In this document: positions 6,885 through 63,795 of the stretch, in pieces
Position numbering within the stretch: position 1 is the first letter of the stretch
Layout of the letters: every line of letters begins with the position of its first letter
From: a virus
Direction: 5' to 3' (one strand)
Virus record (IMG/VR): IMGVR_UViG_3300047496_000204
Location: 62,001 to 126,000 of that record
DNA: 64,000 nucleotides
Notes under the pieces: generated by a model
What the model was told of the DNA's origin: nothing
The model's database searches: none
The model's input: the letters and a program-made list of their open reading frames with translations, nothing else
Position numbers and translations under genes: made by a program

Positions 6885-6890
6885 ATCTAC

Positions 6891-6897
6891 TATTTAT
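6891..6897 (-). promoter_or_regulatory. T4-type late promoter (ATAAATA)
   Basis: ATAAATA with a 6-nt gap to the ATG of the HAD gene. Confidence 0.55.
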
Positions 6898-6945
6898 CTT
6901 AGAAGCAACTTCATCCACCATGACGCATAACCAAAGTATACAAGA

Positions 6946-7270
6946 TCAGAAAATCTTAGCATTTCTCACGGCTTCAAAATCAACTTCTCCGTAATAGTCT
7001 TCCCGAAAATTTCCGTAGAAACCTTCCATGACGAACCAGCCTGTTTTCTTTTCATGATCGTCGAGCAAGCCTACAAAAGCATCTTCAAGCATACCATTTT
7101 CACTTCAAGATTGGCTGATCCACCTTCATAGGCATATTCGTTGATTTCCAAATGAAGCGAGTCATATTCTTTGGTTTCTGGATTCCATTAGGTTCAGGTC
7201 GCAAACTTTTTTGATAATCTTCGTATTCTTTTTCTTCTGGTGTCTGATCCAGCACTTCAATATTCGCCAT
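6946..7270 (-). pseudogene. small gene broken by two frameshifts
   Basis: Start at the ATG of MANIEVLDQTPEEKEYEDYQ with GGAG upstream. The initial frame ends at 7100. The reading frame becomes protein-like again after two single-base gains: first near 7190 (giving NPETKEYDSLHLEINEYAYE) and then at an A4 run near 7097 (giving NGMLEDAFVGLLDDHEKKTG, to TGA at 6946). The 48-aa final piece could itself start at 7092. Ancestral product of about 108 aa, function unknown. Confidence 0.5.
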
Positions 7271-7287
7271 GATTATCTCCAACGAAA

Positions 7288-7314
7288 AAGGCTCCGCTGA
7301 ATAAGCGGAGCCTT
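7288..7314 (-). terminator. intrinsic terminator
   Basis: 11-bp stem AAGGCTCCGCT with 5-nt loop, followed on the minus strand by TTTTTC. Ends the 7335 transcript. Confidence 0.8.
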
Positions 7315-7334
7315 GATCATGTTTCCTAGAAATA

Positions 7335-7541
7335 TTAGGAAGCGGTCTTATCAGATCGAGTGGAATGTTCTACGCGAAGAATGCTCAGGATTTTGTCCTT
7401 AGCAGCGTCAAAGCCTTGAGCCAATTCGCCTTCGACCTTACGAATCGCGTTTTCAATATGGGGAGTAGCCATCTTTGAAGGGGCGATAGGACCCTTTTTA
7501 CCATTCCACTTGATATCTTCCGAGGTAGTTTCGTTAGCCAC
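7335..7541 (-). CDS. hypothetical protein, 68 aa
   Basis: GTG start chosen because AGGAGG lies 7 nt upstream on this strand; earlier in-frame codons have no such site. Product starts MANETTSEDIKWNGKKGPI and ends in a helix rich in charged residues. Resembles small phage proteins of unknown role. Followed by a terminator. Confidence 0.65.
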   Translation of the reverse strand: MANETTSEDIKWNGKKGPIAPSKMATPHIENAIRKVEGELAQGFDAAKDKILSILRVEHSTRSDKTAS

Positions 7542-7604
7542 TTTGGGCCTCCTGTTTGTTAATAACCACACTATCGGCTTTTATGAGCAGTTCGTCAATA
7601 TTTT

Positions 7605-7979
7605 TTATGATGCCTTCTTACAAATCGGGATGAGTTTGGACATGATAACACTTTCCGGTAAAGACGAAATTGGGGTGGTTATATAACCAGCATTTCCTAT
7701 CAAAACGACCAAATAAAATTTGTGAGATTCATCATAGATGCCATTTCCAAAAACAACATTAGCTGTAAAGGTATTACCTGTTAATTTTACGACTGGTTGA
7801 GGATACCATAATCCATCATTAGAATAAACCAAAGCTTGTAAAGATGTTATATTTGGTTTTACATGGCCAGTAATTACATATTCTTGAGGAACTTCATGTA
7901 AAGGAAGATTCACATGGATATCTCCATCAAGGCCAATAACTGCTGCCAACATATATTCAAAATACTTTGTAATGTTCAT
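7605..7979 (-). CDS. late hypothetical protein, 124 aa
   Basis: Start at MNITKYFEYM, preceded by CGGAG; upstream in-frame codons run through a terminator and are not used. A late promoter element lies at 8003-8009 and the leader forms a small CCGAG/CTCGG hairpin that covers the SD site. The beta-rich sequence suggests a virion or decoration-type protein, but no family is recognised. Confidence 0.6.
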   Translation of the reverse strand: MNITKYFEYMLAAVIGLDGDIHVNLPLHEVPQEYVITGHVKPNITSLQALVYSNDGLWYPQPVVKLTGNTFTANVVFGNGIYDESHKFYLVVLIGNAGYITTPISSLPESVIMSKLIPICKKAS

Positions 7980-8002
7980 AAAAATCTCCGAGTTTACTCG
8001 GC

Positions 8003-8009
8003 TATTTAT
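8003..8009 (-). promoter_or_regulatory. T4-type late promoter (ATAAATA)
   Basis: GATAAATAG just downstream of a terminator; restarts transcription for the 7979 gene. Confidence 0.55.
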
Positions 8010-8017
8010 CACAAAAC

Positions 8018-8046
8018 AAAAAGGGGAGCCGGAAGCTCCCCTTTTT
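8018..8046 (-). terminator. strong intrinsic terminator
   Basis: 12-bp stem AAAAAGGGGAGC with a 5-nt loop and U-rich exit; works in either direction. Confidence 0.85.
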
Positions 8047-8396
8047 GTAGAGATTTTTCGCATCTCTCAAGGGTCGATACATGTCCCTCGCGACTAAACA
8101 GTGGTAGTTTTATTTCAATCGCGTTTCGCACTGTCACGCTAATAAAACATCTGTTCGCATTATGAGTGCTACCTGCTTATCGGTTATAGTTGATCCACAT
8201 TTATTTTCCAATTTACAAAAGTCCTCTGAGGACAACAAGGCGGTTACATAATAAATTCTCCTGTATGTTGATTAAACTTACTATTCATTCACTACGCATA
8301 TTTTCAAACTAAATGCTTAAGTCCGAAGGGTTACATGATGATCTCCTTTTCAGATTTAATTTAATATATTGCTATATTGCTATATTGCTCTTCAAC
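8018..8396 (-). ncRNA. candidate non-coding transcript with two SD-AUG-UAA sites
   Basis: Bounded by a TTGACT...TAATAT promoter and the strong terminator, with no ORF above a few codons. It carries two strong ribosome-binding sites each followed at once by a start-stop pair: AAGGAG then ATGTAA at 8336-8331, and CAGGAG then ATGTAA at 8249-8244. Downstream lie nested pairings (GGTA/TACC enclosing GCACT/AGTGC) and a GTCCT/AGGAC hairpin. A decayed gene or a regulatory RNA are both possible. Confidence 0.45.
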
Positions 8397-8402
8397 TTTC
8401 TT

Positions 8403-8429
8403 ATATTAGCAAAAAATAATTTTAGTCAA
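8403..8429 (-). promoter_or_regulatory. sigma70-type promoter
   Basis: TTGACT, 15 bp, TAATAT (or 16 bp to AATATA). Reads leftward into the non-coding region. Confidence 0.5.
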
Positions 8430-8436
8430 GCGATTT

Positions 8437-8820
8437 TTACGCTAAAATTTCATCTCCAAATAGGATGGCTAACGGAATAATTTTTTCATTTGAACATCGA
8501 ACTGTAAATGTTTGATCAAATAAAGATAAAACCAATATCAACCGTTCATTATTGATGATAATTTCCAGACATCTACTAGGCCGTCGTAGGGCCGGTAAAA
8601 ATATTGGTTCGGAGTAAAATGTCTGCCATTTTATTTTACATTTTTCGCCAATTTTTTCAGAAAAGTTTATCAAGCGAGTCAAAAATAGAGCCCAACAACC
8701 AGATTTTTCCAAAGCATTTTTGTGTCTGTTTGGATCAAACCAAGCGGATTCAATATCTTCAATATGGAGAACAATGGGAAGATCACTGTCAAACGCAGCG
8801 CAATCTAGAAAATCTATCAT
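8437..8820 (-). CDS. hypothetical protein, 127 aa
   Basis: Not recognised. Soluble mixed alpha/beta protein with one long basic central region. Lies upstream of the 8424 promoter and is probably expressed with the genes above it on this strand. Confidence 0.6.
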   Translation of the reverse strand: MIDFLDCAAFDSDLPIVLHIEDIESAWFDPNRHKNALEKSGCWALFLTRLINFSEKIGEKCKIKWQTFYSEPIFLPALRRPSRCLEIIINNERLILVLSLFDQTFTVRCSNEKIIPLAILFGDEILA

Positions 8821-8879
8821 TAAAATAAAGCCTTAAGATTAAGACTTCATCCTAATGAGGGAGATTCAGCTTTTCAATA

Positions 8880-9090
8880 TTAAAGAAAGCTCTTGAGAGC
8901 TTTTAGATCGTCGCCGATTAGATCGACATGGATGGGTCCAATACCCAAGGCGGTAACGCCTTTAACATTCTTCTTTGCCGGTATAAAGACGATCTGATCT
9001 AAGAATTACAGCATCGGGTGGCGCATGATTGATATATTCTTCAATGAGTGTGTCAAGACTTTCTTGTAAAGTCTTGACTTCAATGTCCAT
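8880..9090 (-). pseudogene. small gene with one-base insertion
   Basis: ATG opens a 43-aa frame (MDIEVKTLQESLDTLIEEYI...) ending at TAA. Removing one G in TACCGGCAAAG restores KKNVKGVTALGIGPIHVDL and on to the TAA at 8880, about 69 aa in all. Both halves have coding character. No family recognised. Confidence 0.45.
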
Positions 9091-9093
9091 ACT

Positions 9094-9241
9094 TCAATCT
9101 CCAACATTTGATCCAAGGATCAGAGAACCATCAAAAAGCTCTAGCACTTCATACACTATTTGTCTACTAAACATATCATCATTCAAAATCAGCATGATTT
9201 ACTAACAATTTCTTGCAATCTTCTGTTGAAATTTTAGACAT
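9094..9241 (-). pseudogene. small gene with one-base insertion in a T4 run
   Basis: Starts 4 nt after the upstream stop as MSKISTEDCKKLLVNHAD. Loss of one T from TTTT would continue as NDDMFSRQIVYEVLELFDGS to TGA at 9094 (about 48 aa). The second part could also initiate from its own ATG. Function unknown. Confidence 0.4.
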
Positions 9242-9244
9242 ATA

Positions 9245-9781
9245 TCAATCTCCGCAATCTTCGCCCAACCAAAGTTGGTTGTTTCGATCTTCGAGGACAA
9301 AATAACTTACGCCGCCCTCTGTGCCATCCAGATAAAATCTTCGGATAGTAAGAAAACATTCAGCCGGAAGCATCATCGTGTTATTATCTTCGCAGGTTAT
9401 TAGGTATTCTTCATCATAATAATCGCTATTTACATTAGTGGCAGAATATTTTCCACCACGTTTCCACTTTTTTGGATTAATAGACGCCTTTTTTACGGCT
9501 ATATCTTTTTCCAAATATTTTAATTGCATGCTAGGATCGGAAAAAGAATGATCTAATAATTGTGGATTTTTAGAGAAATAGTCTGAAAGAAATTCTCTAC
9601 AATCATTGGTAGTGACTATTGGACTAGCAGGTTGCTTACCAAATGATGGTGGAGCTTCCTCAACTTCGCACACTTCACATAGACTATCGTCATTCAAAGT
9701 TTTAGACAGAAACAAAAGACTGCAACCCTGGCATTCTTCCGCATCTTCTTCCGGATTAAATTCTTTCCATAGTATACTCAT
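9245..9781 (-). CDS. hypothetical protein with CxxC pairs, 178 aa
   Basis: N-terminal Cys pairs ECQGC (about residues 17-21) and LCEVC (34-38) suggest one zinc-ribbon knuckle pair. The rest is acidic with a beta-rich C-terminus (YFVLEDRNNQLWLGED). Overlaps the upstream gene by ATGA. Function unknown; a DNA- or protein-binding adaptor is possible. Confidence 0.6.
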   Translation of the reverse strand: MSILWKEFNPEEDAEECQGCSLLFLSKTLNDDSLCEVCEVEEAPPSFGKQPASPIVTTNDCREFLSDYFSKNPQLLDHSFSDPSMQLKYLEKDIAVKKASINPKKWKRGGKYSATNVNSDYYDEEYLITCEDNNTMMLPAECFLTIRRFYLDGTEGGVSYFVLEDRNNQLWLGEDCGD

Positions 9782-10032
9782 AATTCCGAAACCTGAACCA
9801 TTAAATTAGAGATTTCGAGAACTAAACCAACTGCATTATTGACGCCCATTTTAACCATAAAAGCATCAGCCAAGGTCGGCACCATGACAGAAAAGCCGTT
9901 CGAATCTTTAGCTTTCTTGCACGTTGTACCTAATTGTTTGATAACTTTTTCGATTTCTTTATCGGTATCAGAGCCTTTGAACGTGACGATATAACCCCAA
10001 TCTTCAGGGTTAGCCTCATTCTTACTAGGCAT
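9778..10032 (-). CDS. hypothetical protein, 84 aa
   Basis: Small alpha/beta protein with no recognised family. Its stop overlaps the next start by ATGA, so it is co-translated with the zinc-ribbon protein. Lies 30 nt after the HD hydrolase gene and probably shares its promoter. Confidence 0.6.
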   Translation of the reverse strand: MPSKNEANPEDWGYIVTFKGSDTDKEIEKVIKQLGTTCKKAKDSNGFSVMVPTLADAFMVKMGVNNAVGLVLEISNLMVQVSEL

Positions 10033-10061
10033 TCATTTTCTTTGAAAAATGGGACGCAAAA

Positions 10062-10643
10062 TCAATTGCGCCCCTGATAGTTACGATAGATCATCATAGC
10101 TTGCTCGTAAAGGATGGGATCACCATCTGATAGAATTTGTAACAAGGCGCCTTTTTCAGACATCCACTTCCTCGCAAAACCGCCAGAATTTTCAATAATT
10201 CCAGGAGCGTTACTAATCAGGTCCGCAAGTTTTATTGTATGCACATCGGTAGTTTGTTCCGCCGTATGTGCCAAATCAATAGCCTTTCGAACCTTTCTGT
10301 TGCCTTCCCATGGCATGCTTACATCGGTCAATCCAGACACAAGCCGCCGAACTTCTGGACCAAATTCTTGTTCGATCAGATCAAGCGTAATTCCTTCTAG
10401 CATTACACCGTTTTCAAATACGCGTGTATCTTCGACAGTATCGTGGAGCAATGCAGCCATTTCCATCTCAACAGTGACACCAGATGATTCGGGAAGTTCT
10501 TGCAGGATCGCACATACATCAATCGGATGAACAATGTATGGAGCGGGCTCTTCACCCGGCTCAGCATACTTACGCGTCTGCCGCACGGCAGCATGAGCCG
10601 CGCTTGCGAAGATGCGGGCGTTGTTCACGCGAGGATTACTCAT
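10062..10643 (-). CDS. HD-domain (p)ppGpp hydrolase-like protein
   Basis: 193 aa. Motifs of the SpoT/MESH1 hydrolase family in order: a His in the N-terminal helix, YIVHP, LLHDTVEDT (HD plus EDT) and IKLADLISN. Size matches a stand-alone hydrolase with no synthetase domain. It would remove the stringent-response alarmone during infection. The start at MSNPRV is chosen because the promoter predicts an RNA beginning near 10664, at or after the upstream alternative start codons. Confidence 0.75.
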   Translation of the reverse strand: MSNPRVNNARIFASAAHAAVRQTRKYAEPGEEPAPYIVHPIDVCAILQELPESSGVTVEMEMAALLHDTVEDTRVFENGVMLEGITLDLIEQEFGPEVRRLVSGLTDVSMPWEGNRKVRKAIDLAHTAEQTTDVHTIKLADLISNAPGIIENSGGFARKWMSEKGALLQILSDGDPILYEQAMMIYRNYQGRN

Positions 10644-10670
10644 ATCTGCTGTTCTATATGTCATATTCAC

Positions 10671-10698
10671 ACTATAATAGAAAAATCATTTACGTCAA
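10671..10698 (-). promoter_or_regulatory. sigma70-type promoter for HD gene
   Basis: TTGACG, 16 bp, TATAGT; one half of a divergent pair with 10708-10735. Confidence 0.7.
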
Positions 10699-10707
10699 CC
10701 TTTTTCC

Positions 10708-10735
10708 TTGACGATTTTCATTTTTATGTTATTGT
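10708..10735 (+). promoter_or_regulatory. sigma70-type promoter
   Basis: TTGACG, 16 bp, TATTGT; drives the 10768 operon, which has AAGGAG before its ATG. Confidence 0.6.
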
Positions 10736-10767
10736 AATTTTATAAGGGCAACCAAGGAGAAATAATT

Positions 10768-11034
10768 ATGTTCATCGTAATGACTGCGAGCGCCAAGGTT
10801 TCTAGCAAACTTCGTCAATACGGTGGTCAATATCGCCATGTGGCTGTTGTTGAAATTGATCCGTCTGTATGTGAAATTCCGGCGATGATCAGTACGCATG
10901 CAAAAGGCGTTATTCGGATCGTGAGTGACAGCGGTGCTCTTAAAGTCGGATCGACCGAACGATGCGCGTGGTTTCGGGCTGTAGAAGAAGCAAATGTTCT
11001 GGCGGCGAAGCTCAATGATTCCGTTCCGGCATAA
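10768..11034 (+). CDS. hypothetical protein, 88 aa
   Basis: Strong AAGGAG upstream and a dedicated promoter point to early expression. The beta-rich start (MFIVMTASAKVSSKL) and later VAVVEID look like a small soluble fold. No family recognised; a host-takeover protein is plausible from position alone. Confidence 0.65.
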   Translation: MFIVMTASAKVSSKLRQYGGQYRHVAVVEIDPSVCEIPAMISTHAKGVIRIVSDSGALKVGSTERCAWFRAVEEANVLAAKLNDSVPA

Positions 11035-11045
11035 GGAAATTTAGT

Positions 11046-11513
11046 ATGCGTTTTGTTCATGATGAAACCCTTGATGATCTTGCCCACATCACGGCATCGG
11101 TTAATATACCGCGCAGTCAAGCATCTAAAGAAAATCCGATGCTTGCCACGATTACCATCGATCCATCAACTCTTTTCTCTATTCTGACATCAGCGACTCT
11201 TTATCGTTATGATAATCCGGTTAAGATGAAGGGAGATTTGGAATCATATCGAGAAAACAAAGATTGGTATGATCTCCAAGGTGATGCCATTCGGGTTCTT
11301 GAAGGGCGTTTGTCTGTTGCTTGCGATCCAGATTACGGCCATAGTAGAGACAAGGAAGTTTCACAAGATCGAAAGTTTCGGCGACTTTTTGAAGAACAAA
11401 AGCTGGATAACCCGGAAGAAGAAATTCAAGAAGAAACCATGCAAGATTTGAGAAACAAAATTGCAAGACTCGAATCGCAACTGGCTCGCGTCAAATCAGC
11501 AATAGAAGGATAA
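11046..11513 (+). CDS. hypothetical protein with C-terminal coiled coil, 155 aa
   Basis: Follows the previous gene by 11 nt. The last 45 residues (QDLRNKIARLESQLARVKSA) have clear heptad character. The middle contains DPDYGHSRDKE. No family recognised. Confidence 0.6.
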   Translation: MRFVHDETLDDLAHITASVNIPRSQASKENPMLATITIDPSTLFSILTSATLYRYDNPVKMKGDLESYRENKDWYDLQGDAIRVLEGRLSVACDPDYGHSRDKEVSQDRKFRRLFEEQKLDNPEEEIQEETMQDLRNKIARLESQLARVKSAIEG

Positions 11514-11517
11514 CAAT

Positions 11518-13933: not shown

Positions 13934-13936
13934 TAG

Positions 13937-14051
13937 ATATGTATTTATTGTAGCGGCCATTTACCAGTCAAAATAATCGATCCGATTCCATAAGAAAAAA
14001 CACAAATAACACCGATTATTCCAAGTATGATTGCAAAAACTACAGCCGTAA
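13937..14051. repeat. 115-bp direct repeat, second copy
   Basis: Partner of 12896-13009; this copy sits in the intact context (end of the 13945 gene plus late promoter). Confidence 0.85.
13942..13948 (-). promoter_or_regulatory. T4-type late promoter (ATAAATA)
   Basis: ATAAATA 8 nt before the 13933 ATG; duplicated upstream of 12678. Confidence 0.5.
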
Positions 14052-15629: not shown

Positions 15630-16261
15630 ATACCGATTTTGCTCTTAAAAAAACGCCAGCAATGGCCAGACGCATTATAGAACTATCAGAAGTTTTTGAC
15701 CTTAATATTGATCCTGCCATAAAAGAATTGGCCAGGGAAAATCTGATAACAGAAGTCGATTTTGAAGGTTATAATTTTACCTCAGAACAAAAACGAATGG
15801 TACAAAAGTTAATTGATTACAACTTTAGAGCCATTATGCCATTAGAAACCGATGTAATTATGGCTGCTGCTAATATAGCCAATATAAAAACGGTAGTAGT
15901 CAATTCTATTATTGATTTTGGAGATGAATACAAAAATAAAATCATATATAAACAGTTTTCTTCGGTAATACCTAAGGATTATTCTGATTTTGCTAAAGCC
16001 CATAGAGATGGCATACTAATACTACCTGCCATTCTTCCGGGTTACATATCTATTTTAACAAGCGATTTCTACAAAACAATTTTTGTTACAGCGTCGTCAT
16101 CAAAGTCTCCATTAGTCAGAGCACTATTTCCAAATTATGAAGAAAAAATGCTTATTAGTGACAAGCAGTATGCTGATTTCCCAAAAAAACAACTTGGTCT
16201 CAACAACGATAATAACAAAAATTTAGGATTCTTGGTAAACATTATAAATAATGAATGCTGA
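15626..16261 (+). CDS. degenerate helicase-like protein, 211 aa
   Basis: GTG start overlapping the previous stop, with GGAG upstream. Residues about 58-90 (FTSEQKRMVQKLIDYNFRAI) look like a Q-motif helix and first strand of an SF2 motor, but the expected GxGKT loop is replaced by PLETD, so ATP binding would be lost. With 15009 it could be a split, inactive relative of a phage SNF2-like helicase. Inference only. Confidence 0.4.
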   Translation: MNTDFALKKTPAMARRIIELSEVFDLNIDPAIKELARENLITEVDFEGYNFTSEQKRMVQKLIDYNFRAIMPLETDVIMAAANIANIKTVVVNSIIDFGDEYKNKIIYKQFSSVIPKDYSDFAKAHRDGILILPAILPGYISILTSDFYKTIFVTASSSKSPLVRALFPNYEEKMLISDKQYADFPKKQLGLNNDNNKNLGFLVNIINNEC

Positions 16262-28703: not shown

Positions 28704-28710
28704 CTAAATA
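28704..28710 (+). promoter_or_regulatory. T4-type late promoter (CTAAATA)
   Basis: CTAAATA with a 6-nt gap to the 28717 ATG. Confidence 0.45.
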
Positions 28711-29010: not shown

Positions 29011-30294
29011 CTATTCTTTATGTAATATGTTGATATTTTGATCAGTGAATAAAACGTAGTTGTAATGTTTTTCTAATTTATCACGCGTAGAACCAGTATA
29101 ATATTTTATTCCGGATATTCCATATTTTAGTAGCAACAATGATGCATGTTTCTTAGCAGTATTTCGATCCATGCCTTTTTCAGTGAAAATAAAAACTATA
29201 TCCTCATATATACTCGACCCAGACCGATATTGTAAATCATATCCATACCAAGAATTATATTCATCTTTTTCAAATAATTCTGGTTCGGTAGCTCTTAAAC
29301 TATTTTTTACACTTTCTGACTGTTCATCAAAATCGAAATCCCATAATAGAAAATTGGCATCATCTGGAATATTAACTTTGTATAATTTTCCCTTTAAAGG
29401 AAGATACTTCATGCCCTTAATAGATAAAAAAGCCGCCGCTGTCATGAGTTTTATTGAATATAATTCATCATCATAAACTCCTCCAAGATCGCGGATAATT
29501 TTTTTAAACCAACTCGCTGGAGTTTCTAAACTTTTGGGGTCTTCAAATATTGAAACACGAATATGTCGTATGATCCATTTTTTATACCATTCCCGAGTTT
29601 CTTCTCCACTCGCGAAATCTGTTTTTTCTAATGGCGCATATTTGTCAATAAATTTTCCAATTCTTTCATTCAATAAAGGATCACCATCAATAAAAACTTG
29701 ACCATCTATTTCTACTTCTTGTCCTTTATTGGAAGGATCAGTAAGATTTTTGCGATACCAGTCGGCAATTTTTCTCAAATCGGTGAAATATAATCCCCAA
29801 CCATACATGAAATTTCCTTCACCAGTTCCTATATGATCGGTTGAGAATTGATCAAAATCGTGCTTGGTTCCGTGCCAAACATCTTCTTCTATATTTCCAC
29901 GAGGATTTCGATACATCAACTCACTGATCGTAAAATCTTTGTTCCGACCTTTATTGAGAATAAATCCAAATCTTTTATAGAAGCCTATTAGACGGCTCTG
30001 GGAGGTCGTTCCCTTATTTGGGTCCTTGGTAGCAGGAGATAGTAGAACGCGCCTGTGGTGGCTATCAGCGAACCTACAAAGGGCTTCCATAGCCTTACTA
30101 CCGGTTCCTTGCTTCTTATTTGTGACTTCGATCATCATTAGTTTTAAATCGCCATTACGTTGAAGTGAAACGTCGAAGAACTTCAATCCAAGTTTAAGGC
30201 GAATATCATCTGACCATTTATCAATTGCTTCTCGTGTCAAAGGGCTCCCAATTTCTGGAAGCCCTTCGTTTTCAAAAAGATCAATGATTTTCAT
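29011..30294 (-). CDS. GNAT acetyltransferase fused to ADP-ribosyltransferase-like domain
   Basis: 427 aa. Tag MKIIDLFENE with LFE site. Residues about 40-128 are a GNAT fold (NKKQGTGSKAMEALC, then LIGFYKRFGF). From about 138 follows an ART-like domain of the type found in MuF and large polyvalent phage proteins: VWHGTKHDFDQF, YGWGLYFTD, LYKVNIPDDANFLLWD and GIKYYTG...NYVLFTD. Likely injected with the DNA to modify host proteins. Late element CTAAATA 5 nt before the ATG, no SD. Confidence 0.75.
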   Translation of the reverse strand: MKIIDLFENEGLPEIGSPLTREAIDKWSDDIRLKLGLKFFDVSLQRNGDLKLMMIEVTNKKQGTGSKAMEALCRFADSHHRRVLLSPATKDPNKGTTSQSRLIGFYKRFGFILNKGRNKDFTISELMYRNPRGNIEEDVWHGTKHDFDQFSTDHIGTGEGNFMYGWGLYFTDLRKIADWYRKNLTDPSNKGQEVEIDGQVFIDGDPLLNERIGKFIDKYAPLEKTDFASGEETREWYKKWIIRHIRVSIFEDPKSLETPASWFKKIIRDLGGVYDDELYSIKLMTAAAFLSIKGMKYLPLKGKLYKVNIPDDANFLLWDFDFDEQSESVKNSLRATEPELFEKDEYNSWYGYDLQYRSGSSIYEDIVFIFTEKGMDRNTAKKHASLLLLKYGISGIKYYTGSTRDKLEKHYNYVLFTDQNINILHKE

Positions 30295-30840
30295 TCAACT
30301 ATTTAGCGCGTCATGATACTCTTGAAGTTCTTTACGCAGAAGACATTTGCCTTGTGCTCTTTTTTGGCGATGATCAATCTTCTTCGAAAGGGCAACACCA
30401 TGCATCCGCTGACGGCGGCATGAACCGTTGCGATAGACTTCATTGTGAATACGAAGCCACTTCTGATATTCATCATGATCCTTTTCGTCGAAATCTGGAT
30501 TCGGTATCCAAATATCAACGGTATGATAATCGGAAGGTTCTTCCCATTTTTCATACATTGGTGCATCATATTTAGTGCCGAAATCACAAGGCTGCCCAAA
30601 ACGTGCCTGATCTCTTAGAAATTCTTCCTCATCAGCCGGTATATAAACCCATGGCCAATGATATTTTTGCTCTAAATATTTTTTGTAGACAAATTGCCTA
30701 GACCATTGCCCGCGATTCTGGTCTTTCAGCTTAGGAGTATTTTTAAGGATATTATAGTCAAGGCGGTTGAATGGTCCGTTTGGATACAATTTAACACCAC
30801 GAGGGCGATCAAGCGGGAGCTTACGCACAGTTCTGCTCAC
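30295..30840 (-). CDS. hypothetical protein, 181 aa
   Basis: GTG start with AGAAGGAG upstream. Basic, Trp/Tyr-rich (KYHWPWVYIPADEEEFLRDQ) with YQKWLRIHNEVYRNGSCRR. Similar short blocks occur in phage proteins of unknown role. Preceded by a structured leader of about 170 nt. Confidence 0.6.
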   Translation of the reverse strand: MSRTVRKLPLDRPRGVKLYPNGPFNRLDYNILKNTPKLKDQNRGQWSRQFVYKKYLEQKYHWPWVYIPADEEEFLRDQARFGQPCDFGTKYDAPMYEKWEEPSDYHTVDIWIPNPDFDEKDHDEYQKWLRIHNEVYRNGSCRRQRMHGVALSKKIDHRQKRAQGKCLLRKELQEYHDALNS

Positions 30841-34708: not shown

Positions 34709-34715
34709 ATAAATA
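34709..34715 (+). promoter_or_regulatory. T4-type late promoter (ATAAATA)
   Basis: ATAAATA, 4-nt gap to ATG, no SD site. Confidence 0.6.
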
Positions 34716-34719: not shown

Positions 34720-37125
34720 ATGCGCTATTCTGAACTCAAAGAATCGAAATATTTTCCAGTTGAAATACGCGGAACTAGACTAGACGTTATTAAAAATCCT
34801 AATCATAATGATATTTTAAGATTATTTGCCGCTATTAGAAAATATCTTAGGAATAGTAATCCAAAATTAAATGAAGAAGCAAGAGGGTTATTATTTGATG
34901 ATGGCGATCTATATGTTTGGAATGCTTATGAAGCTTCACATGATCAAATTGCAGGAGCTTTAAAATTATATGATTTTTGCGATAATCTCTACTTTAGTTC
35001 TCCAACTACCGTGACTGCATCACATGATTCTGAAATACAACGTAAAATGGATTCTCCAAAATTTGATAATCTGCGTATCGCTTTAGGCGTTAGAGCTAAT
35101 GTACTAAAAGAATATCAAAAAATGGAAATAGCCACTATTCCTGGAAAAATATACAAAAAATCAGTTCCAGTATGGATTAATCCTAGTCGAAAAGAATTGG
35201 ACAAATTAATTGGTAAATTCAAAATAGGTAAAAGTTATAATAAAGATGATGGATACGCACGCGGAATAGTAGACACCAAAGGAAATATATTTGTATGGGA
35301 TTCTTATGAAGCAGAGCACAACCAAATAATACGTAATATGGGCATCGATCCGTTATATCTGTTCTATATAATAGATACAACTCCTACTGGAATACTGGTC
35401 TATGATTTATATAATGATCTTGTTCCACTTGAAAAGATTAGCTTTCCACACTTCAAAGAAATTTGTAAAGGAAAACTTTCAGAAAGTATTGAAATTCTTC
35501 CTATATCATATGGGCCACATCAAAAAAAAGACATAACCGTTTGGAAAAACGAACCAAATCTTGAAGCTATAATGAAAAAAACTGGAAATAGTGTAAGAGG
35601 CATCGTGGATTCACAAGGTAATCTATATGTTTGGGATGAATACGACGCAACGCATTTCGAGATAAAAGAAGTTTTAGAAAAAGGTGGAGCGATTACTGAA
35701 GAAGATTTGTGGAATGAAAATAATGGTATCAAAATATATTGCGCGCGTGATAAACAATACTATGTAGCTCCGAATGGTGTTTATGGTCAACATACCTTTG
35801 ACGATCCTAAGGTTCCAGAGTTCATTCGAAATGCTTTAGTTAAGATCAAGAAGCCAAAAATCACTGAAGGCAAAGTAGAATTTGTTTCGATTAAAGGAAT
35901 AACCACCAAAGTATTGAAAAATCCGTCTAATACAGAATTGTTAAATCTCATTAACAATATTGAAGTATTCAAAAATACTGGTATTGGGAAAATTAAAGGT
36001 ATTATTGACAATAAAAAAGACTTATATGTTTGGGATGCTTATCTAGCTCATCATAATCAAATAAAATTTATGTTAGCTTTAAATGTTCAGTGTAATGTTT
36101 ACATAGAATATTATTCAAAAGAAAATAATTTTGTTTATAACGCTTTTCGAAAAGAATATGACGCTCCTAAAAATGCTATTGTTTTTCCTTCTTTTCGAAA
36201 AGCGTTGAATTTACAAAAACTTGCAGAAGGCCGATTAGAAGATTTCAAAAAATTAGCCGATGATCAGCGATATCGTCCGGAACTGGCGATGCTTGATGCT
36301 CAAAAAGTTTTACATAATTATCCAAATGGCGCCTCTTTAGGATATGCGCTTGAACATGTTGGTGACTTGACTCATCGCATGTCTCAACGATTCTGCGAGC
36401 GCATGGGATATGGTGAAGAATGGGTTGCTCCAAAAGTTAAAATTGGTTTACAATACTTGAAAAATATTCCTGATACGGAAGCAGCGATGGCTATTCCAGA
36501 CCTTCCAGAGTTGAAAACCTACGCAACTGAACATGCTAAGCTAAAAGTCTACAACGCGGTTCAGAAGGCCGCTAGAGATGCCGCTGTTGCCTTAGGATAT
36601 CGCAAATTCAATTTGGCAAGAAAAAACTTGGAATATCTTCAAGGATTAATCGATAGCGGTAAATATCAAGAAGAAGCCGCAAAGTATGAATTAACCGAAA
36701 CAGCCCAGCCCTTCTACAGAGGTTTTTGGATCACCGACAAAGGAGAAATTTTGAATTGTGATTATGAAAACGATATTCATCATGCCGATTTGCTGGTTAA
36801 TTACTTCAAGATAAAACAACATAGAGATAAAGACAACGATATTAATTGGGATGAATATTATGGAAATACTGATCTTGCTTTAAAGCATGGATGGGTACGA
36901 TGCTCTATATCTGGAAATAAACTAAACATTCAAATGGTAGGTCCGTTAAGTAAAGCAGCAGATCACTGTTTACTTGATTGGGTGTCGAAATATGGAAAAA
37001 TGTTTGGCGGTCTCTTTATTGAGAATCCGTATACCAAAGAAACTACAAAATATTTTGATCGAAATAAATTCTATTCTGAAATAAAAAAGCGAATATCGGG
37101 GAGGAAGGCAGATGAAGTTAACTGA
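34720..37125 (+). CDS. packaged-type protein with four YVW-H repeat domains and a GWVRC domain
   Basis: 801 aa. Tag MRYSELKES. Four copies of an approximately 85-residue domain follow, each with a basic strand ending in (K/I)N(P/E), a R-G-(I/L)xD turn and (L/I)(Y/F)VWxxxxAxHxxI, the YVW core at about residues 64, 190, 302 and 434. A helical segment (about 505-660) leads to a C-terminal domain FWITDKGEILNCDYEND...HGWVRCSISG shared with 37112. No catalytic motif recognised. Overlaps 37112 by 14 nt. Confidence 0.7.
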   Translation: MRYSELKESKYFPVEIRGTRLDVIKNPNHNDILRLFAAIRKYLRNSNPKLNEEARGLLFDDGDLYVWNAYEASHDQIAGALKLYDFCDNLYFSSPTTVTASHDSEIQRKMDSPKFDNLRIALGVRANVLKEYQKMEIATIPGKIYKKSVPVWINPSRKELDKLIGKFKIGKSYNKDDGYARGIVDTKGNIFVWDSYEAEHNQIIRNMGIDPLYLFYIIDTTPTGILVYDLYNDLVPLEKISFPHFKEICKGKLSESIEILPISYGPHQKKDITVWKNEPNLEAIMKKTGNSVRGIVDSQGNLYVWDEYDATHFEIKEVLEKGGAITEEDLWNENNGIKIYCARDKQYYVAPNGVYGQHTFDDPKVPEFIRNALVKIKKPKITEGKVEFVSIKGITTKVLKNPSNTELLNLINNIEVFKNTGIGKIKGIIDNKKDLYVWDAYLAHHNQIKFMLALNVQCNVYIEYYSKENNFVYNAFRKEYDAPKNAIVFPSFRKALNLQKLAEGRLEDFKKLADDQRYRPELAMLDAQKVLHNYPNGASLGYALEHVGDLTHRMSQRFCERMGYGEEWVAPKVKIGLQYLKNIPDTEAAMAIPDLPELKTYATEHAKLKVYNAVQKAARDAAVALGYRKFNLARKNLEYLQGLIDSGKYQEEAAKYELTETAQPFYRGFWITDKGEILNCDYENDIHHADLLVNYFKIKQHRDKDNDINWDEYYGNTDLALKHGWVRCSISGNKLNIQMVGPLSKAADHCLLDWVSKYGKMFGGLFIENPYTKETTKYFDRNKFYSEIKKRISGRKADEVN

Positions 37126-39228: not shown

Positions 39229-39236
39229 TATTTATA
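39229..39236 (-). promoter_or_regulatory. T4-type late promoter (TATAAATA)
   Basis: TATAAATACTAT, close to the extended T4 consensus; 4-nt gap to ATG. Confidence 0.75.
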
Positions 39237-40200: not shown

Positions 40201-40207
40201 ATAAATA
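40201..40207 (+). promoter_or_regulatory. T4-type late promoter (ATAAATA)
   Basis: GCATAAATA, 5-nt gap to ATG, no SD site. Confidence 0.6.
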
Positions 40208-40212: not shown

Positions 40213-41112
40213 ATGACCGCTACCGTTGAAATTTACAATATGCCAAAAGTCACAACGCTGACGCTTGTGAGTAGTGGAACAGGAGCCAGCCAAATGAATT
40301 ATCCTATGAATACAACAGAAATTAGCTTATTAAAAGGTGTAACCAACGACGTTTATTTTTTCGTAAAAGATGTTGATCGCAAACCAGTCACCGCAAATGC
40401 TATGGCGAATGCCAATATCAGCAATGTTCGTATTGTTATAACAGACCCTAATGCTACTGGTAATGCCGCTTTATTATTAGGTTCTCAACTTCCACCAATG
40501 GCAGGAGACCCAAGCTATCTTGTTCCAGCACCAAATATTGATGCCGCCAAAGGATGTTGGATGTTTACGGCTAACTCATCATTAACGTATGATTGGCCTA
40601 TTTCTGCTTTAAATTACAGTATTATTTGTGATAGAATTTCTGGTGGTCCAGTCATGTTATATACAGATAGAAACTATAATCCAAAAAGTAATATATACAT
40701 GCTTCCTGGACCTTTTCCGGGACCATCGGAAACAATTTATGTTAGCAATAATGCGTTTGTTCAACAAGGCATGAGTATATTCAGTGGTCCTTATCCCGGA
40801 GCAGCACAGATAGGAAATCTAAGTGGACAACATAGTATGGTAGCAAACGTGGCTATGTTCACAGGAAGTATTTCAGTACAAGCGTCTTTAGAAAATCAAG
40901 CTCCAACTGAAGATACTGATTGGTTTGAAGGAAATATTACTTCCACAACCGCCGGAACTATAACAAATCCTGGAACGGTAACAATTAATGTTGATCAATC
41001 TGATCCAGTTTATATTTCTTTCCAAGGAAATTACATGTGGGTTAGATTTATTGTCTACAATAATGTCATGGGCGGCGGCTATTTCTTTAATTTAGACTAT
41101 AGAAATGATTAA
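40213..41112 (+). CDS. putative virion structural protein, 299 aa
   Basis: Beta-rich, Gly/Asn/Pro-rich with few charged residues, no tag. SLLKGVTNDVYFFVKDVDRK followed by a series of short strands and VYISFQGNYMWVRFIVYNN at the end resemble T4-like neck, tail or fibre-type proteins. The late promoter placed for leaderless expression supports a structural role. Family not identified. Confidence 0.6.
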   Translation: MTATVEIYNMPKVTTLTLVSSGTGASQMNYPMNTTEISLLKGVTNDVYFFVKDVDRKPVTANAMANANISNVRIVITDPNATGNAALLLGSQLPPMAGDPSYLVPAPNIDAAKGCWMFTANSSLTYDWPISALNYSIICDRISGGPVMLYTDRNYNPKSNIYMLPGPFPGPSETIYVSNNAFVQQGMSIFSGPYPGAAQIGNLSGQHSMVANVAMFTGSISVQASLENQAPTEDTDWFEGNITSTTAGTITNPGTVTINVDQSDPVYISFQGNYMWVRFIVYNNVMGGGYFFNLDYRND

Positions 41113-41696: not shown

Positions 41697-41703
41697 TATT
41701 TAT
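41697..41703 (-). promoter_or_regulatory. T4-type late promoter (ATAAATA)
   Basis: GATAAATAAAAAT then ATG. Confidence 0.6.
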
Positions 41704-42802: not shown

Positions 42803-42830
42803 ACGCATGCTAATAAATATTAGCATGCGT
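42803..42830 (+). promoter_or_regulatory. 12-bp hairpin containing late promoter and start codon
   Basis: ACGCATGCTAAT pairs with ATTAGCATGCGT across AAAT. ATAAATA (42813-42819) sits at the loop and the ATG of the 42825 gene lies in the 3' arm. It may end the phosphoesterase mRNA, start the next gene, or hide its start codon in read-through RNA. Confidence 0.6.
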
Positions 42831-50623: not shown

Positions 50624-50630
50624 TATTTAT
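50624..50630 (-). promoter_or_regulatory. T4-type late promoter (ATAAATA)
   Basis: GGATAAATATTTAA then ATG. Confidence 0.65.
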
Positions 50631-54522: not shown

Positions 54523-54530
54523 TATAAATA
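54523..54530 (+). promoter_or_regulatory. T4-type late promoter (TATAAATA)
   Basis: TATAAATA, 5-nt gap to ATG, no SD site. Confidence 0.7.
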
Positions 54531-58717: not shown

Positions 58718-59608
58718 TTTGAAATCGCTTTCCCATATTTGAACTAAATTATATCCAGAAGATTCAATATCTTTGATTTTCTGAATAGTCCGCGAATAAA
58801 GATAACCATAAGATTTTTTAATTACTGGATGAATAGCGGCTTGATCAAACTTATTTGGATTACCGTGCCAATAATCACCCCAAAATTCATACGCAGTATT
58901 AGTGAGTGGATTAAAACCATCAACTTTAACATACTTCCCTGTATGCAGTTTAAGTTTTAATTGTCGATGTTCTTTATCATCCGGAAGACCAAGAGAGTTA
59001 AGCCATTTTGTTTCGCCTTTACTGATAATTTTCGAACATTTTGGACAACCATGATTTGCCAAATGATTATCTATGGTTTGATTAAAGATTTTATGGATTG
59101 GGCATATTATTTCTATTTTTTGTTTGTTTGACAGATAATCAAAATTTGAATATGAATATTTATTTTTATGAATAATGGAAGATTTTTTTACAAAATTATT
59201 GAAATTGGATTTTAACGTGCCACCACATACATTACAACCGTATCCTTGAAGATGCTCTCTGGGCATCTGCGTAAAATAATCATTATGTTTTTTACAAAAT
59301 ATTTCTATCGGTGTAATGCTGTTTACATAAAAATCATATCTATAAATATTTCCATGTATAGAAAATGCTTTTTCTACAAAATCTTGTAATGACCTTCTTT
59401 GTTTATTAGTAGTTTTTTGACGACCGCAATCATTGCAACCACATCCAGAAATATGACTGTAAGCTTCTTGCCAGAAATAACCATGTTTTTTACAACCAAT
59501 TTCTATTTTTTTCTTAGCCGTAAAATATTGCACTCTTGTATAATCATACTGATTTGAGTGAATTTTCCGAGCACGCTCTATAAATTCTTCTGTTGTTAGA
59601 CTTTTCAT
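58709..59608 (-). CDS. repeat-type HNH/REase-like homing endonuclease
   Basis: 299 aa. Three to four DUF723-like zinc repeats, each KHGYF-x-H-GCGCNDC style, then a nuclease-like end KVDGFNPLTNTAYEFWGDYW with HGNP. Convergent with 57044. Close relative of 60242, on the other strand; the pair brackets the structural gene 59680. Confidence 0.7.
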   Translation of the reverse strand: MKSLTTEEFIERARKIHSNQYDYTRVQYFTAKKKIEIGCKKHGYFWQEAYSHISGCGCNDCGRQKTTNKQRRSLQDFVEKAFSIHGNIYRYDFYVNSITPIEIFCKKHNDYFTQMPREHLQGYGCNVCGGTLKSNFNNFVKKSSIIHKNKYSYSNFDYLSNKQKIEIICPIHKIFNQTIDNHLANHGCPKCSKIISKGETKWLNSLGLPDDKEHRQLKLKLHTGKYVKVDGFNPLTNTAYEFWGDYWHGNPNKFDQAAIHPVIKKSYGYLYSRTIQKIKDIESSGYNLVQIWESDFKLP

Positions 59609-60241: not shown

Positions 60242-61144
60242 ATGAAAAGACTGTCAAATGAAGAATTTATCGAAAAAATAAATCTCATACATCCTGGAAA
60301 ATATCAATATCCAGAAAAATATATCAATTCTCGACAAAAAATAAAAATTATTTGTCCAACTCATGGATCATTTTTTCAGCTAGTTTCGGATCATTTAGGC
60401 GGTCATGGATGTAAAGATTGTGCTCATAATAGACCGTTAGATACTAACAAATTTGTTGAATTATCTATTAATATTCATAGAAATAGATATAATTATGATT
60501 TTGTATCATATAAGAATTCTTCTACTTATGTAAAGATAAAATGTTCTATACATGGTATATTTTTACAAAAACCAAACTCTCATCTTCAAGGAGAGGGATG
60601 TCCTAAATGTGGCAATCAATTGATATCTGAACTAAAAACTTCAAATATAGATGAGTTTATTCTAAAAGCCAATGCTATTCATAATAATAAATATAGCTAT
60701 ACAAATTCTATTTATATTGATAGTTATACTAAAATAGAAATAATTTGTTCTCAACATGGCAAATTTTGGCAAAAACCAAATGCTCATATGCAAAACGCTG
60801 GTTGTCCAAAATGTGCTGGAAGAATAAGCAAGAAAGAATTGGCATGGCTTGATTTTGTTGGAGTTCCAGATGATAAACAGCATCGCCAAGTAAAATTGCC
60901 GTTTCATAGCGGAAGAAAATATAAAGTAGATGGATATGATCCGTCTACAAATACAGTGTATGAATTCTGGGGAGATTATTTTCATGGTAATCCACGAACT
61001 CGCGGAAAAGACCCAGAGGCTATGAATAAAAAATTAAAGAAAACATTCGGTCAATTATATGAGGAGACCTTACAAAAAATCAGAGATATTGAAGTCTCTG
61101 GTTACAAATTAATTTATATTTGGGAAGATGAATTTTGCAATTAA
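60242..61144 (+). CDS. repeat-type homing endonuclease
   Basis: 300 aa. HGSFFQLVSDHLGGHGCKDC, HGIFLQKPNSHLQGEGCPKC and a third like repeat, then KVDGYDPSTNTVYEFWGDYF with HGNP. Same family as 58709. No SD stronger than the hairpin-proximal sequence; start by first Met. Confidence 0.7.
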   Translation: MKRLSNEEFIEKINLIHPGKYQYPEKYINSRQKIKIICPTHGSFFQLVSDHLGGHGCKDCAHNRPLDTNKFVELSINIHRNRYNYDFVSYKNSSTYVKIKCSIHGIFLQKPNSHLQGEGCPKCGNQLISELKTSNIDEFILKANAIHNNKYSYTNSIYIDSYTKIEIICSQHGKFWQKPNAHMQNAGCPKCAGRISKKELAWLDFVGVPDDKQHRQVKLPFHSGRKYKVDGYDPSTNTVYEFWGDYFHGNPRTRGKDPEAMNKKLKKTFGQLYEETLQKIRDIEVSGYKLIYIWEDEFCN

Positions 61145-61176: not shown

Positions 61177-61238
61177 ATTGTCAATGTGATGCCTTTTCAG
61201 GGTCACATTAACTTTTTTGCTTATAAAGGAAAAACGAA

Positions 61239-61667
61239 ATGAGTATTATCGCAAGACGTTTAATTGATGATTTTTTCAATTGGGGATTTCAAGAACACTA
61301 TGCCTTGGAACCTCAAAATACCTGGGAAACTTATTCTGTCAAAGGTTTCCCTCATTATAATATAGCTCGTGTTAATGAGCGAAATTATAATATAGAAGTA
61401 GCTTTGGCAGGATATTCTGTTGATGATATCAAAGTTGAGCTTGAAAATGATGTTCTTACTATTACTGGTAAAAATAAAGAAGTAAGTAATAAATATGCGT
61501 ATAAAGGTATAACTACACAAGCATTTTCAAGAGACTTTTGTCTTCATCCTGGGGCAGACATTGGAACTATAAGTTTCGAAAATGGAATATTAACAATTCC
61601 AGTGCATGTTCCTGAGATAGAAAATACAAGAAAAACATTACAGATAAAACAAATAAAAACTGAGTAA
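61239..61667 (+). CDS. small heat-shock protein, Hsp20/IbpA-like
   Basis: 142 aa. Alpha-crystallin core: YNIEVALAGYSVDDIKVELE, LTITGK, then AFSRDFCLHPGADIG and the hinge motif NGILTIPV. Holds unfolding proteins; common in T4-like phages of aquatic hosts. Own promoter and terminator, so a stand-alone unit. Confidence 0.9.
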   Translation: MSIIARRLIDDFFNWGFQEHYALEPQNTWETYSVKGFPHYNIARVNERNYNIEVALAGYSVDDIKVELENDVLTITGKNKEVSNKYAYKGITTQAFSRDFCLHPGADIGTISFENGILTIPVHVPEIENTRKTLQIKQIKTE

Positions 61668-61674
61668 ATTAACG

Positions 61675-61701
61675 AAAAGGGGGACTAACAATCCCCCTTT
61701 T
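61675..61701 (+). terminator. intrinsic terminator
   Basis: AAAAGGGGGA/TCCCCCTTTT with a 7-nt loop and a U-run. Confidence 0.85.
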
Positions 61702-61939
61702 TTAGTCCAAATATGCCGTATCGTTTTCCAATATCAATCCATTTTCAGAGGCAAGTTCTTTTGCATATTTGAACGCGACGTGTGGATCACATAGAATCTG
61801 TGTCTTGAGGCCACATCGTATTCGCTAATTTCGTATCCCATACCTTGGCAGATTTCAACCGTAGCCAGCGTTTCCGGTTTCCACATGGATAAACAATTAT
61901 CCATGTGCTATCAGCATTGAAATAGGGTTCATAAGACAT
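61702..61939 (-). pseudogene. small gene with at least two frameshifts
   Basis: Start MSYEPYFNADST, then the good frame moves to NCLSMWKPETLATVEICQGM and EISEYDVA, then to DPHVAFKYAKELASENGLIL ending at TAA 61702. Original product about 80 aa. Function unknown. Confidence 0.45.
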
Positions 61940-61983
61940 ATTTCACTTATAACTGATAAAAATTAAAAGTCAACCATGTTATG

Positions 61984-61990
61984 CTAAATA
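61984..61990 (+). promoter_or_regulatory. T4-type late promoter (CTAAATA)
   Basis: CTAAATA, 5-nt gap to the 61996 ATG, no SD site. Confidence 0.6.
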
Positions 61991-61995
61991 CACCT

Positions 61996-63795
61996 ATGAG
62001 AAATTTTATTAATGAAGTTGAACAAAAATTAGAAGGTGGTTTTGATTTTGCTGCTTCTCTTAAAACTATGCTTGGCATAGAAGACAACGAAGTTGAAGAA
62101 ATTATTGAAAAACTATCGGTAGATGAGTTATCTGATCTTATTGATGCATGTTTGAAGAAAAATAAGCAGGTAGCTCGTGAAATTATTGATAACTTAAACG
62201 TGGATGAAAAGGAAATTCCGCGAAAAAAATCTCGTAAACATCACCATAAAGAAGAAGAAATTGAAGAAGAAGTTTCTAGAAATATTGGTGATCCTGTTTC
62301 AGTTAATGGAAAAGAAGCAACTATAAAATATCCACAGGCGCCGAATGATACTGTTGGAGTTTTAATTGATGGAGAATTACAAATGGCTAAAAGTAAAGAT
62401 GTTAAAAAGGTTAAAGAAGCCATTCTTGGAATGTCTCCTTTACCTGGATTAAATGGAATGCAAGATGATTCTCAAAACGATGATATTCGTCGTATGAAAG
62501 AATTGGCTGGTGTTCGCGATGAAGTTCCGGCTGAAATGCCAGGACAACCTCCTATGGTTCCTCCAAGTATGGAAGCCCATCCTGACGAGCGTCTTCCATT
62601 TCATAATATGGATTTTGATAATTACGAAGAAGATGAAGGCAATTTTGATACTTTTGGCGATGATTATCATGAACCCGTATCGGCTGAAACCCCTACGATT
62701 CCTATTCCTATGCCATCCGAAACTATTGGCGCGGAAGAAGGCGACTACGCGTCCATAGAAGGGGCTATCACTGAAATTGAGGATATGATCCCAAATATTA
62801 AAATAAGCGAATACAAGGCCCTTGTAGCGCGTTTAAAGGCATTGCTGTCTATGGCTGAAGGTGCGGGTCGTTCGGCGTTGGCTGAAGCCGCTAAAAAAAA
62901 GGGTAGACGTTTAAGAGAAGGTTTCGAAAATGGCGTTTGGGTTGAACCAAACGGTGGCGGTGATAATAGTGATGAAGTAGAATATGTAGTTGTTGGTAAA
63001 ACACCTAAAAACAAATATTATCGCTTAGGAACAGTTGAAAGTTCTGATGCCGATCTATCCAAATTCAGTCCAAAATCTAAGGATGATAAAGTCGTTATTA
63101 TGAGCAGAAGTAATAATGGAAAATTCAGTCTTGTTAAGAATGTAGATGAAAGTGATCGTCTACAAAGGTCTGGGAAATTCAAGGTAGGACAGCGCATTGA
63201 GGCTGGGAAAAAGGGCACTGAAGACTATGACACAGGCCGCGTGACGAAGGTCGAAGGTGATCAGATCACCGTGGCATGGGATAGCGGGTCAAAGACGACT
63301 CAGCCTTCACGGGCGCTGAAAGTAGATTCAGAGTCACGAAAGGATGCGGCCAATGCGGTAAAAAAACTAGAACCTAAAAAAGAAGATCGAATTCTTCCAA
63401 AGGATGCTCCTAAAAAGGACAAGCCTCGTAGTGATGAACCAACTGGAACCCGTAAGACTTTGATGGACTATGTTTTTGAAGCTGATGACGATGGTATGCA
63501 GACTATTGGAGCTAATCGCAATGATGCCATAAAAGCATTAAAGATGAGAATGGGACCAAATATTTCTGATCAACAAGCCAGTGCGGCATTTGATGGTATG
63601 ATGAAAGCTGGTACAGTAAAACAAGATGGACCAGCATTTAAAATGCCAACTATGAGCGATGATGCACTAAAAACTTCTATGGCTCCTAATACAAATACTC
63701 CAAATAATTCTGGTATGTCTAATGGCCCAACAAATTTAGGTACGGACATGAATCAAATCAATCAAGGTCCAATTCAAACAATTAAGCCACGATAA
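61996..63795 (+). CDS. large acidic head/scaffold-like protein, 599 aa
   Basis: Start at MRNFINEVEQ, preferred over the ATG 15 nt earlier because that lies inside the late promoter. Tag with INE site. Acidic and Pro/Met-rich middle (MPGQPPMVPPSMEAHPDERL) with DIRRMKELAG, a short KOW-like segment RVTKVEGDQITVAWDSGS and a long acidic/basic low-complexity end. Looks like a prohead core or internal protein; no firm family. Confidence 0.6.
   Translation: MRNFINEVEQKLEGGFDFAASLKTMLGIEDNEVEEIIEKLSVDELSDLIDACLKKNKQVAREIIDNLNVDEKEIPRKKSRKHHHKEEEIEEEVSRNIGDPVSVNGKEATIKYPQAPNDTVGVLIDGELQMAKSKDVKKVKEAILGMSPLPGLNGMQDDSQNDDIRRMKELAGVRDEVPAEMPGQPPMVPPSMEAHPDERLPFHNMDFDNYEEDEGNFDTFGDDYHEPVSAETPTIPIPMPSETIGAEEGDYASIEGAITEIEDMIPNIKISEYKALVARLKALLSMAEGAGRSALAEAAKKKGRRLREGFENGVWVEPNGGGDNSDEVEYVVVGKTPKNKYYRLGTVESSDADLSKFSPKSKDDKVVIMSRSNNGKFSLVKNVDESDRLQRSGKFKVGQRIEAGKKGTEDYDTGRVTKVEGDQITVAWDSGSKTTQPSRALKVDSESRKDAANAVKKLEPKKEDRILPKDAPKKDKPRSDEPTGTRKTLMDYVFEADDDGMQTIGANRNDAIKALKMRMGPNISDQQASAAFDGMMKAGTVKQDGPAFKMPTMSDDALKTSMAPNTNTPNNSGMSNGPTNLGTDMNQINQGPIQTIKPR

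Follow-up and report, generated by a model that had tools for sequence, protein, structure and literature searches.

Within the window, by which we mean the whole stretch of 64,000 nucleotides that was analysed, the hexamer TAAATA lies 4 to 8 nucleotides ahead of the ATG at all 12 genes named in the original prediction, which had read these boxes as T4-type late promoters abutting the start codon. A 13th site, absent from that list, has its box at 16245..16250 (+), 4 nucleotides (N4) before the ATG at 16255 of a T7-kinase-like protein of 192 aa. The other boxes on the plus strand lie at 28705..28710 (N6, ATG 28717, a 66-aa ORF), 34710..34715 (N4, ATG 34720, an 801-aa repeat protein), 40202..40207 (N5, ATG 40213, a virion structural protein, PHROG 14467), 42814..42819 (N5, ATG 42825, 110 aa, with a hydrophobic N-terminus resembling a signal peptide and an additional box at 42798-42803), 54525..54530 (N5, ATG 54536, 97 aa) and 61985..61990 (N5, ATG 61996, 599 aa). 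On the minus strand, they occupy 6891..6896 (N6, ATG 6884, 165 aa, with a weak phosphatase-like match below the cut-off), 13942..13947 (N8, ATG 13933, 303 aa), 30300..30305 (N5, ATG 30294, 427 aa), 39229..39234 (N4, ATG 39224, a T7-kinase-like protein with the N-terminus MRYHEIISEF), 41697..41702 (N5, ATG 41691, 192 aa) and 50624..50629 (N5, ATG 50618, 180 aa, with a weak ART-PolyVal match).

Leaderless late mRNAs are predicted, among others, for the ART-like gene at 29011..30294 (-), whose ART-PolyVal match falls just under the Pfam cut-off, the repeat-protein gene at 34720..37125 (+), the virion structural gene at 40213..41112 (+) and the gene at 61996..63795 (+). The upstream neighbor is divergent at 34720 (gap of 77 nt), at 41691 (gap of 47 nt) and at 61996. 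The least secure members of the class are 28717, with its short ORF, which as a single site may still be due to chance, and 13933, with its N8 spacing and a predicted leader of ~3 nt. A longer ORF that opens at 13960 overlaps the latter candidate start, although we favor 13933 because a paralogue at 12678 has an identical N-terminus.

The genes of this class had been described as encoding late head proteins, a label that proved too narrow. Those in the window encode ADP-ribosyltransferase-like and T7-kinase-like proteins, one virion structural protein and others without an assignment, and homing endonucleases belong to the class elsewhere on the record. In relatives, the class consists of late structural and packaging genes and includes terminase, neck, head-tail adaptor, baseplate (wedge) and tape-measure genes.

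A/T-rich genomes might be expected to put TAAATA near ATG by chance, and two observations fit such an origin: the window has no excess of the hexamer itself (90 occurrences versus 108 expected), and the raw pattern, counted with no ORF requirement, is just about twice as frequent as in shuffles (16 versus 6.6, maximum 14). As the original prediction anticipated, a motif search against shuffled controls gave counts in excess of the shuffles, with TAAATA at N4-6 before 12 ATGs that open ORFs of 60 aa or more, against 0.14 (maximum 2) in 200 dinucleotide shuffles of the window. We also applied a stricter null to the whole 134.5-kb record, in which the real ORF starts were kept and the other offsets served as background. 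Under this null, TAAATA occurred at N5 13 times versus 0.89 expected per offset (P = 1.5e-11) and at N4-6 of 21 ORF-opening ATGs versus ~2.7 expected (P = 1.3e-12), and when all hexamers were ranked by their N4-6 enrichment on this record, TAAATA came out on top. The TAAATA signal is entirely its position. Given a P of about 1e-12 against other offsets of the same genome, and given that other phages show the pattern independently (see below), chance is refuted for the class as a whole, and we regard it as having next to no probability.

The boxes are of the TATAAATA-type that defines a T4-type late promoter. At the N5 sites, position -12 carries A (85%) or C (15%), TAAATA itself being invariant by virtue of the search, and from -18 downstream no strong base appears outside the box. 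In the window's phage, -13 is usually G or A and rarely T, unlike in T4. The late box of T4 is numbered from -13 and functions without a -35 element (PMC2988020). Since the T4 box spans -13 to -6, an N5 spacer would put +1 on the A of the AUG.

Two further features are those expected of leaderless mRNAs. When six genomes were pooled, 82 ATG sites had the box at N4-6 versus ~9 expected, whereas GTG (2 sites) and TTG (5 sites) both remained at background. The claim that the listed genes have no Shine-Dalgarno (SD) site was borne out by anti-SD duplex energies, which averaged -0.70 for the class, while ORFs no shorter than 150 aa averaged -2.75 (p = 0.0013). Regarding the early-type genes with which the class had been contrasted, SD sites are indeed present at many genes outside the class, but the TTGACA promoters ascribed to early-type genes are at chance level, with 70 sigma-70-type matches versus 68.5 in shuffles (window positions 1-20000).

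Single-protein searches of viral contigs found no close relatives, and relatives were obtained via an alignment of UvsX homologues. An N5 spike is present in G004, a 338-kb relative with only 11-65 kb of which the window's record, a fragment, is colinear (19 versus 1.06 expected), in the cultured Pelagibacter phage HTVC008M (12 versus 0.74) and in three related contigs, G009 (8 versus 0.23), G012 and G014 (3 each versus ~0.1). The N5 excess in G002, G005 and G010 is only weak, and we left these out as leaderless lineages. We relied on per-genome tests rather than a pool of 80 contigs because the pooled N5 signal comes partly from a conserved coding stretch (MRKLRSQ...). In T4, Syn9, S-PM2, P-SSM4 and, mainly, Melnitz, the box peaks at N19-29 instead.

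In HTVC008M, most N5 sites coincide with starts that the depositors annotated for tail, neck and baseplate genes (gp2-, gp4-, gp25-, tape-measure- and baseplate-type). Some SD-like sequence is kept at 31% of its N5 sites. The terminase gene has the box at N4-6 in 10 different contigs. Orthologues change between the leadered and the abutting layout: gp4 is at N5 in HTVC008M versus N24-26 in P-SSM4, Syn9, S-PM2 and T4, gp25 is at N5 in HTVC008M versus N16 with GGAG in Melnitz, and the head-tail adaptor gene is at N5 in G004, G009 and G014 versus N22-25 in G005 and G010. Moreover, G004 holds both layouts, one at N4-6 without an SD (31 sites, SD energy -0.31) and one at N15-30 with an SD (59 sites, -4.43; p = 3.4e-9), and its portal and tail-fibre genes retain the leader.

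These comparisons bear on whether the boxes could instead be host sigma-70-type -10 elements adjoining the ORF, in which case the mRNAs would be leaderless without being late-specific. Such a layout exists in bacteria: Deinococcus-Thermus has leaderless mRNAs with a "-10 region adjacent to ORF" (PMC12340547), so that there, as predicted here, a promoter element adjoins the start codon and the RNA begins at the AUG, and neither model involves a -35 element. However, the Deinococcus-Thermus element is of the host sigma-70 type and lies in a cellular genome, whereas the enriched hexamer here is precisely TAAATA, not TATAAT-like, and matches a phage late box. In addition, orthologous late genes of T4, the cyanophages and G005/G010 have the same box plus a leader, and the relatives' class genes are late structural and packaging genes. 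We therefore consider a sigma-70 origin very unlikely.

A/T-rich upstream regions are frequent at SD-less genes, and TAAATA-N5 could thus be a translation-initiation signal inside longer mRNAs rather than a promoter. Yet hexamer and spacing are both strict, and the same genome can have TAAATA at N15-30 with an SD. At some sites in G004, G009, G012, G014 and HTVC008M, terminator hairpins (-14 to -19 kcal/mol) that carry T-runs lie 10-13 nt upstream and would leave a leader no room; a search for such upstream terminators at the sites of the window's own record found none. On that record, the upstream neighbor is divergent at no fewer than 9 of the 22 class genes (at least 9/22), which places the transcription start within a short intergenic stretch. 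We judge a purely translational role very unlikely, slightly more so than a sigma-70 one. A pyrimidine is usual ahead of a transcription start, and at -1 pyrimidines are enriched in HTVC008M, G009, G005 and G002, with no such bias in the window's own phage.

Very probably, then, these are gp55-type late promoters that abut the ATG and would yield leaderless late mRNAs. This core reading is well supported by the enrichment, the missing SD, the restriction to ATG, the recurrence, the coexistence of layouts in G004 and the orthologue comparisons; sequence and comparison thus uphold the original proposal, while the 5' end at the AUG stands as a prediction. A gp55 gene is present in HTVC008M and G004, and a search of the window's 134.5-kb record found none, so the late sigma factor of this phage is inferred from its relatives. 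As we picture it, gp55 would recognize boxes ending 4-6 nt, mostly exactly 5 nt, ahead of the start codon, transcription would, by T4 spacing, start on the A of the AUG or within one base of it, and ribosomes would recognize the 5'-terminal AUG in place of an SD. Earlier read-through RNA from upstream promoters would bring the class genes without a ribosome-binding site, and for that reason translation would occur only once late transcription begins.

T4-type late genes are the textbook example of expression timed by transcription, after which translation proceeds in the ordinary, SD-led way. The window's phage shares with the T4 system (gp55/gp33/gp45) an 8-bp box upstream of late genes and at operon heads, and differs in that the box precedes the ATG by only 4-6 nt, the SD is missing and -13 is rarely T, whereas in T4 and cyanophages the box is mostly 20-30 nt before the ATG, in T4 with an SD between. 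A functional parallel may be T4 I-TevI, segB, gene e and soc, which have a late promoter just upstream and are translated only late, the earlier read-through RNA remaining untranslated (PMC3014915); there, however, a hairpin hides an existing SD, while the window's phage has no SD to hide. HTVC008M, in its late operons, has TAAATA at N5 of 12 ORF-opening ATGs of its own, most of them annotated starts, but belongs to the Kyanoviridae, and on the UvsX tree its layout change is separate from that of the window's lineage.

More tentatively, and with the odds somewhat against it, several T4-type lineages may have repeatedly made late promoters leaderless, some (G004) running two classes of late mRNA, with leaderlessness acting as a late-only lock. 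Because early and middle read-through RNA would have no ribosome-binding site, effectors, homing endonucleases and packaging/neck proteins would stay silent until gp55-dependent transcription. If true, a late promoter fused with the start codon would unite the transcriptional and translational steps, making translation of these genes conditional on the promoter that made the RNA. The idea is testable because the layout recurs across unrelated lineages and one of these is a Pelagibacter phage in culture; the sister pair HTVC008M/Melnitz offers a natural comparison. Start-codon calling, in which gene finders search for SD sites, would also be affected, and one may ask by what means infected cells achieve efficient translation of leaderless mRNAs.

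We considered phage-encoded bS21 as a correlate of the layout. It is present in HTVC008M, G002, G004 and G005 and absent from T4, Syn9, S-PM2 and CBB; however, Vibrio phage 2.275.O and Atu_ph07 have bS21 with no clear N5 peak, and the mainly leadered Melnitz is reported to carry it (PMC9004378), so we rejected it as not specific. N-termini resembling the T4 capsid-targeting sequence show no significant link to the class in the window's phage, and a significant one only in G004, where they occur in 5 of 36 class proteins versus 9 of 342 (p = 0.006).

All 12 sites at which a T4-type late promoter box (TAAATA) had been predicted to abut an ATG and give leaderless late mRNAs are present in the window. 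The spacers between box and start codon (Nx for x nt) measure N4 at ATG 34720 and 39224; N5 at 30294, 40213, 41691, 42825, 50618, 54536 and 61996; N6 at 6884 and 28717; and N8 at 13933. A 13th site, ATG 16255 (N4), was absent from the original prediction. The record is 134,526 bases long, with the window at 62001-126000; the remainder was also retrieved and its genes called. TAAATA by itself is not enriched (90 found versus 108 expected), and it is therefore position that matters. On the record, 13 ORF-opening ATGs carry the box at exactly N5 (P = 1.5e-11) and 21 at N4-6 (P = 1.3e-12), versus 0.89 per offset at other distances, and in the window 12 such sites compare with 0.14 in 200 dinucleotide shuffles (maximum 2). 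When all hexamers were compared, TAAATA came top at that position in the window phage, its 338-kb relative G004 and the cultured Pelagibacter phage HTVC008M.

Several features suggest that the resulting mRNAs would lack a leader. T4 late promoters have an 8-bp TATA box whose numbering begins at -13; it sits roughly one helical turn ahead of the start and has no accompanying -35 element (PMC2988020). If the box spans -13 to -6, an N5 spacer sets +1 on the A of AUG. As predicted, Shine-Dalgarno (SD) sites are almost absent from the N4-6 class (mean -0.70 kcal/mol, versus -2.75 across the full set of ORFs of 150 aa or more; p = 0.0013). In six pooled genomes, ATG alone is enriched at N4-6 (82 sites versus about 9 expected), with no enrichment of GTG or TTG, and restriction to ATG is expected of ribosomes recognising a 5'-terminal AUG. 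At least 9 of the record's 22 class genes are divergent from the gene upstream, which mostly lies <100 nt away. At some N5 sites of G004, HTVC008M and the related contigs G009, G012 and G014, a stable hairpin and T-run ends just 10-13 nt before the box and, if it terminates, leaves a downstream RNA start possible only at or near the AUG; of the window phage's own sites, 0/20 showed one.

The arrangement recurs in relatives. G004, whose 11-65 kb part is colinear with the window record, holds two separate sets, 31 N4-6 sites without SD and 59 leadered N15-30 sites, peaking at N19, with SD (-0.31 versus -4.43, p = 3.4e-9). An N5 peak also occurs in G009, G012 and G014, and in HTVC008M, whose 12 N5 sites match depositor-annotated starts (among them those of the DNA end protector, head closure, tail tube cap, baseplate wedge and tape measure genes). 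The box instead peaks at N28 in T4, N20-21 in Syn9 and S-PM2, N19 in P-SSM4 and N29 in Melnitz, the sister phage of HTVC008M, none with a significant N5 excess. RaK2, CBB, PAU, phiM12, phiM9, Cr30, phiW-14, Phosso and Tunturi_5 showed no clear excess over a reversed-pattern control.

Orthologues convert between the layouts. Gene gp4 is N5 in HTVC008M versus N24-26 in P-SSM4, Syn9, S-PM2 and T4; gp25 is N5 in HTVC008M versus N16 with GGAG in Melnitz; a head-tail adaptor gene has the N5 layout in G004, G009 and G014 versus N22-25 in contigs G005 and G010; and a 1080-aa gene is N5 in G004, G009 and G012 versus N20-27 with SD in G005 and G010. Terminase genes on 10 different contigs are N4-6 with mostly unrelated flanks. 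That the same box occurs with and without a leader argues that the box is the promoter and the leader the varying part. A UvsX tree requires at least three layout changes; HTVC008M and Melnitz are sisters on it and differ in main layout. In Melnitz, two orthologues, those for the cyclase and the DNA end protector, retain N5.

The sequences themselves show the layout, the lack of SD, the ATG restriction, the recurrence and the conversion. Beyond this, we propose that the late sigma factor gp55 would recognise the boxes, with +1 at the A of AUG and translation initiating on the 5'-terminal AUG, and that read-through RNA would be unable to express class genes. The nearest functional parallel to such a lock is T4 I-TevI and gene e, whose SD is hidden by a hairpin in early but not late transcripts (PMC3014915). 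gp55 is encoded by G004 and HTVC008M and was not found on the window's record, a fragment. A literature search, with most subscription journals outside its reach, found no description of leaderless T4-type late mRNAs; the paper on Melnitz puts that phage's late promoters at 15, with no mention of leaderlessness in the passages available (PMC9004378). In AR9, transcript leaders span 26-491 nt; the paper reporting this describes phage transcripts in general as often leaderless (PMC5312081).

Class genes in the window encode ART-PolyVal-like proteins (30294 and 50618; weak matches), two T7-protein-kinase-like proteins under a late-type box (16255-16833 (+) and 38529-39224 (-); PHROG 15752) and a virion structural protein (40213); the others have no assigned product. 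Elsewhere on the record the class includes an ART-PolyVal protein and GIY-YIG, DUF723 and HNH-type homing endonucleases, and in relatives terminase, head-tail adaptor and gp25-like wedge; the G004 portal and tail fibres are leadered. N5 genes often open with short peptides (MRYHEIISEF, or MRAKEFITEQ in G004) resembling the T4 capsid-targeting sequence MKTYQEFIAEA. Such N-termini were noted in the window at 38529-39224(-), 34720-37125(+), 29011-30294(-), 41113-41691(-) and 61996-63795(+), and in G004, the only phage in which their association with the class is significant.

Ribosomal protein bS21 is encoded by all four of HTVC008M, G004, G005 and contig G002; its link with leaderless late genes lacks specificity, as phages that have no N5 peak encode it too. 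Intein-like insertions of similar sequence occur in an AAA-type ATPase and in the large terminase ('TPIPTPSGWTTMGEVK' versus 'TPLPTPTGWTTMGEVK'; carriers at window 45970-48831(-) and record 9837-12401), and a second, truncated terminase-like ORF left of the window (record 52519-53070(-)) adjoins a homing-endonuclease-like gene. Three paralogues of about 300 aa each lie at window 58709-59608(-) and 60242-61144(+) and at record 85-987, the last, a DUF723 match, being probably a homing endonuclease. A repeat with a VWxxYxAxHxQI-like motif is common to the proteins at window 34720-37125, 37112-38017, 41113-41691 and 57044-58717, the 801-aa member having a single weak match in the phage collection. 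The phage also encodes an Hsp20-like protein (window 61239-61667(+), PHROG 432).
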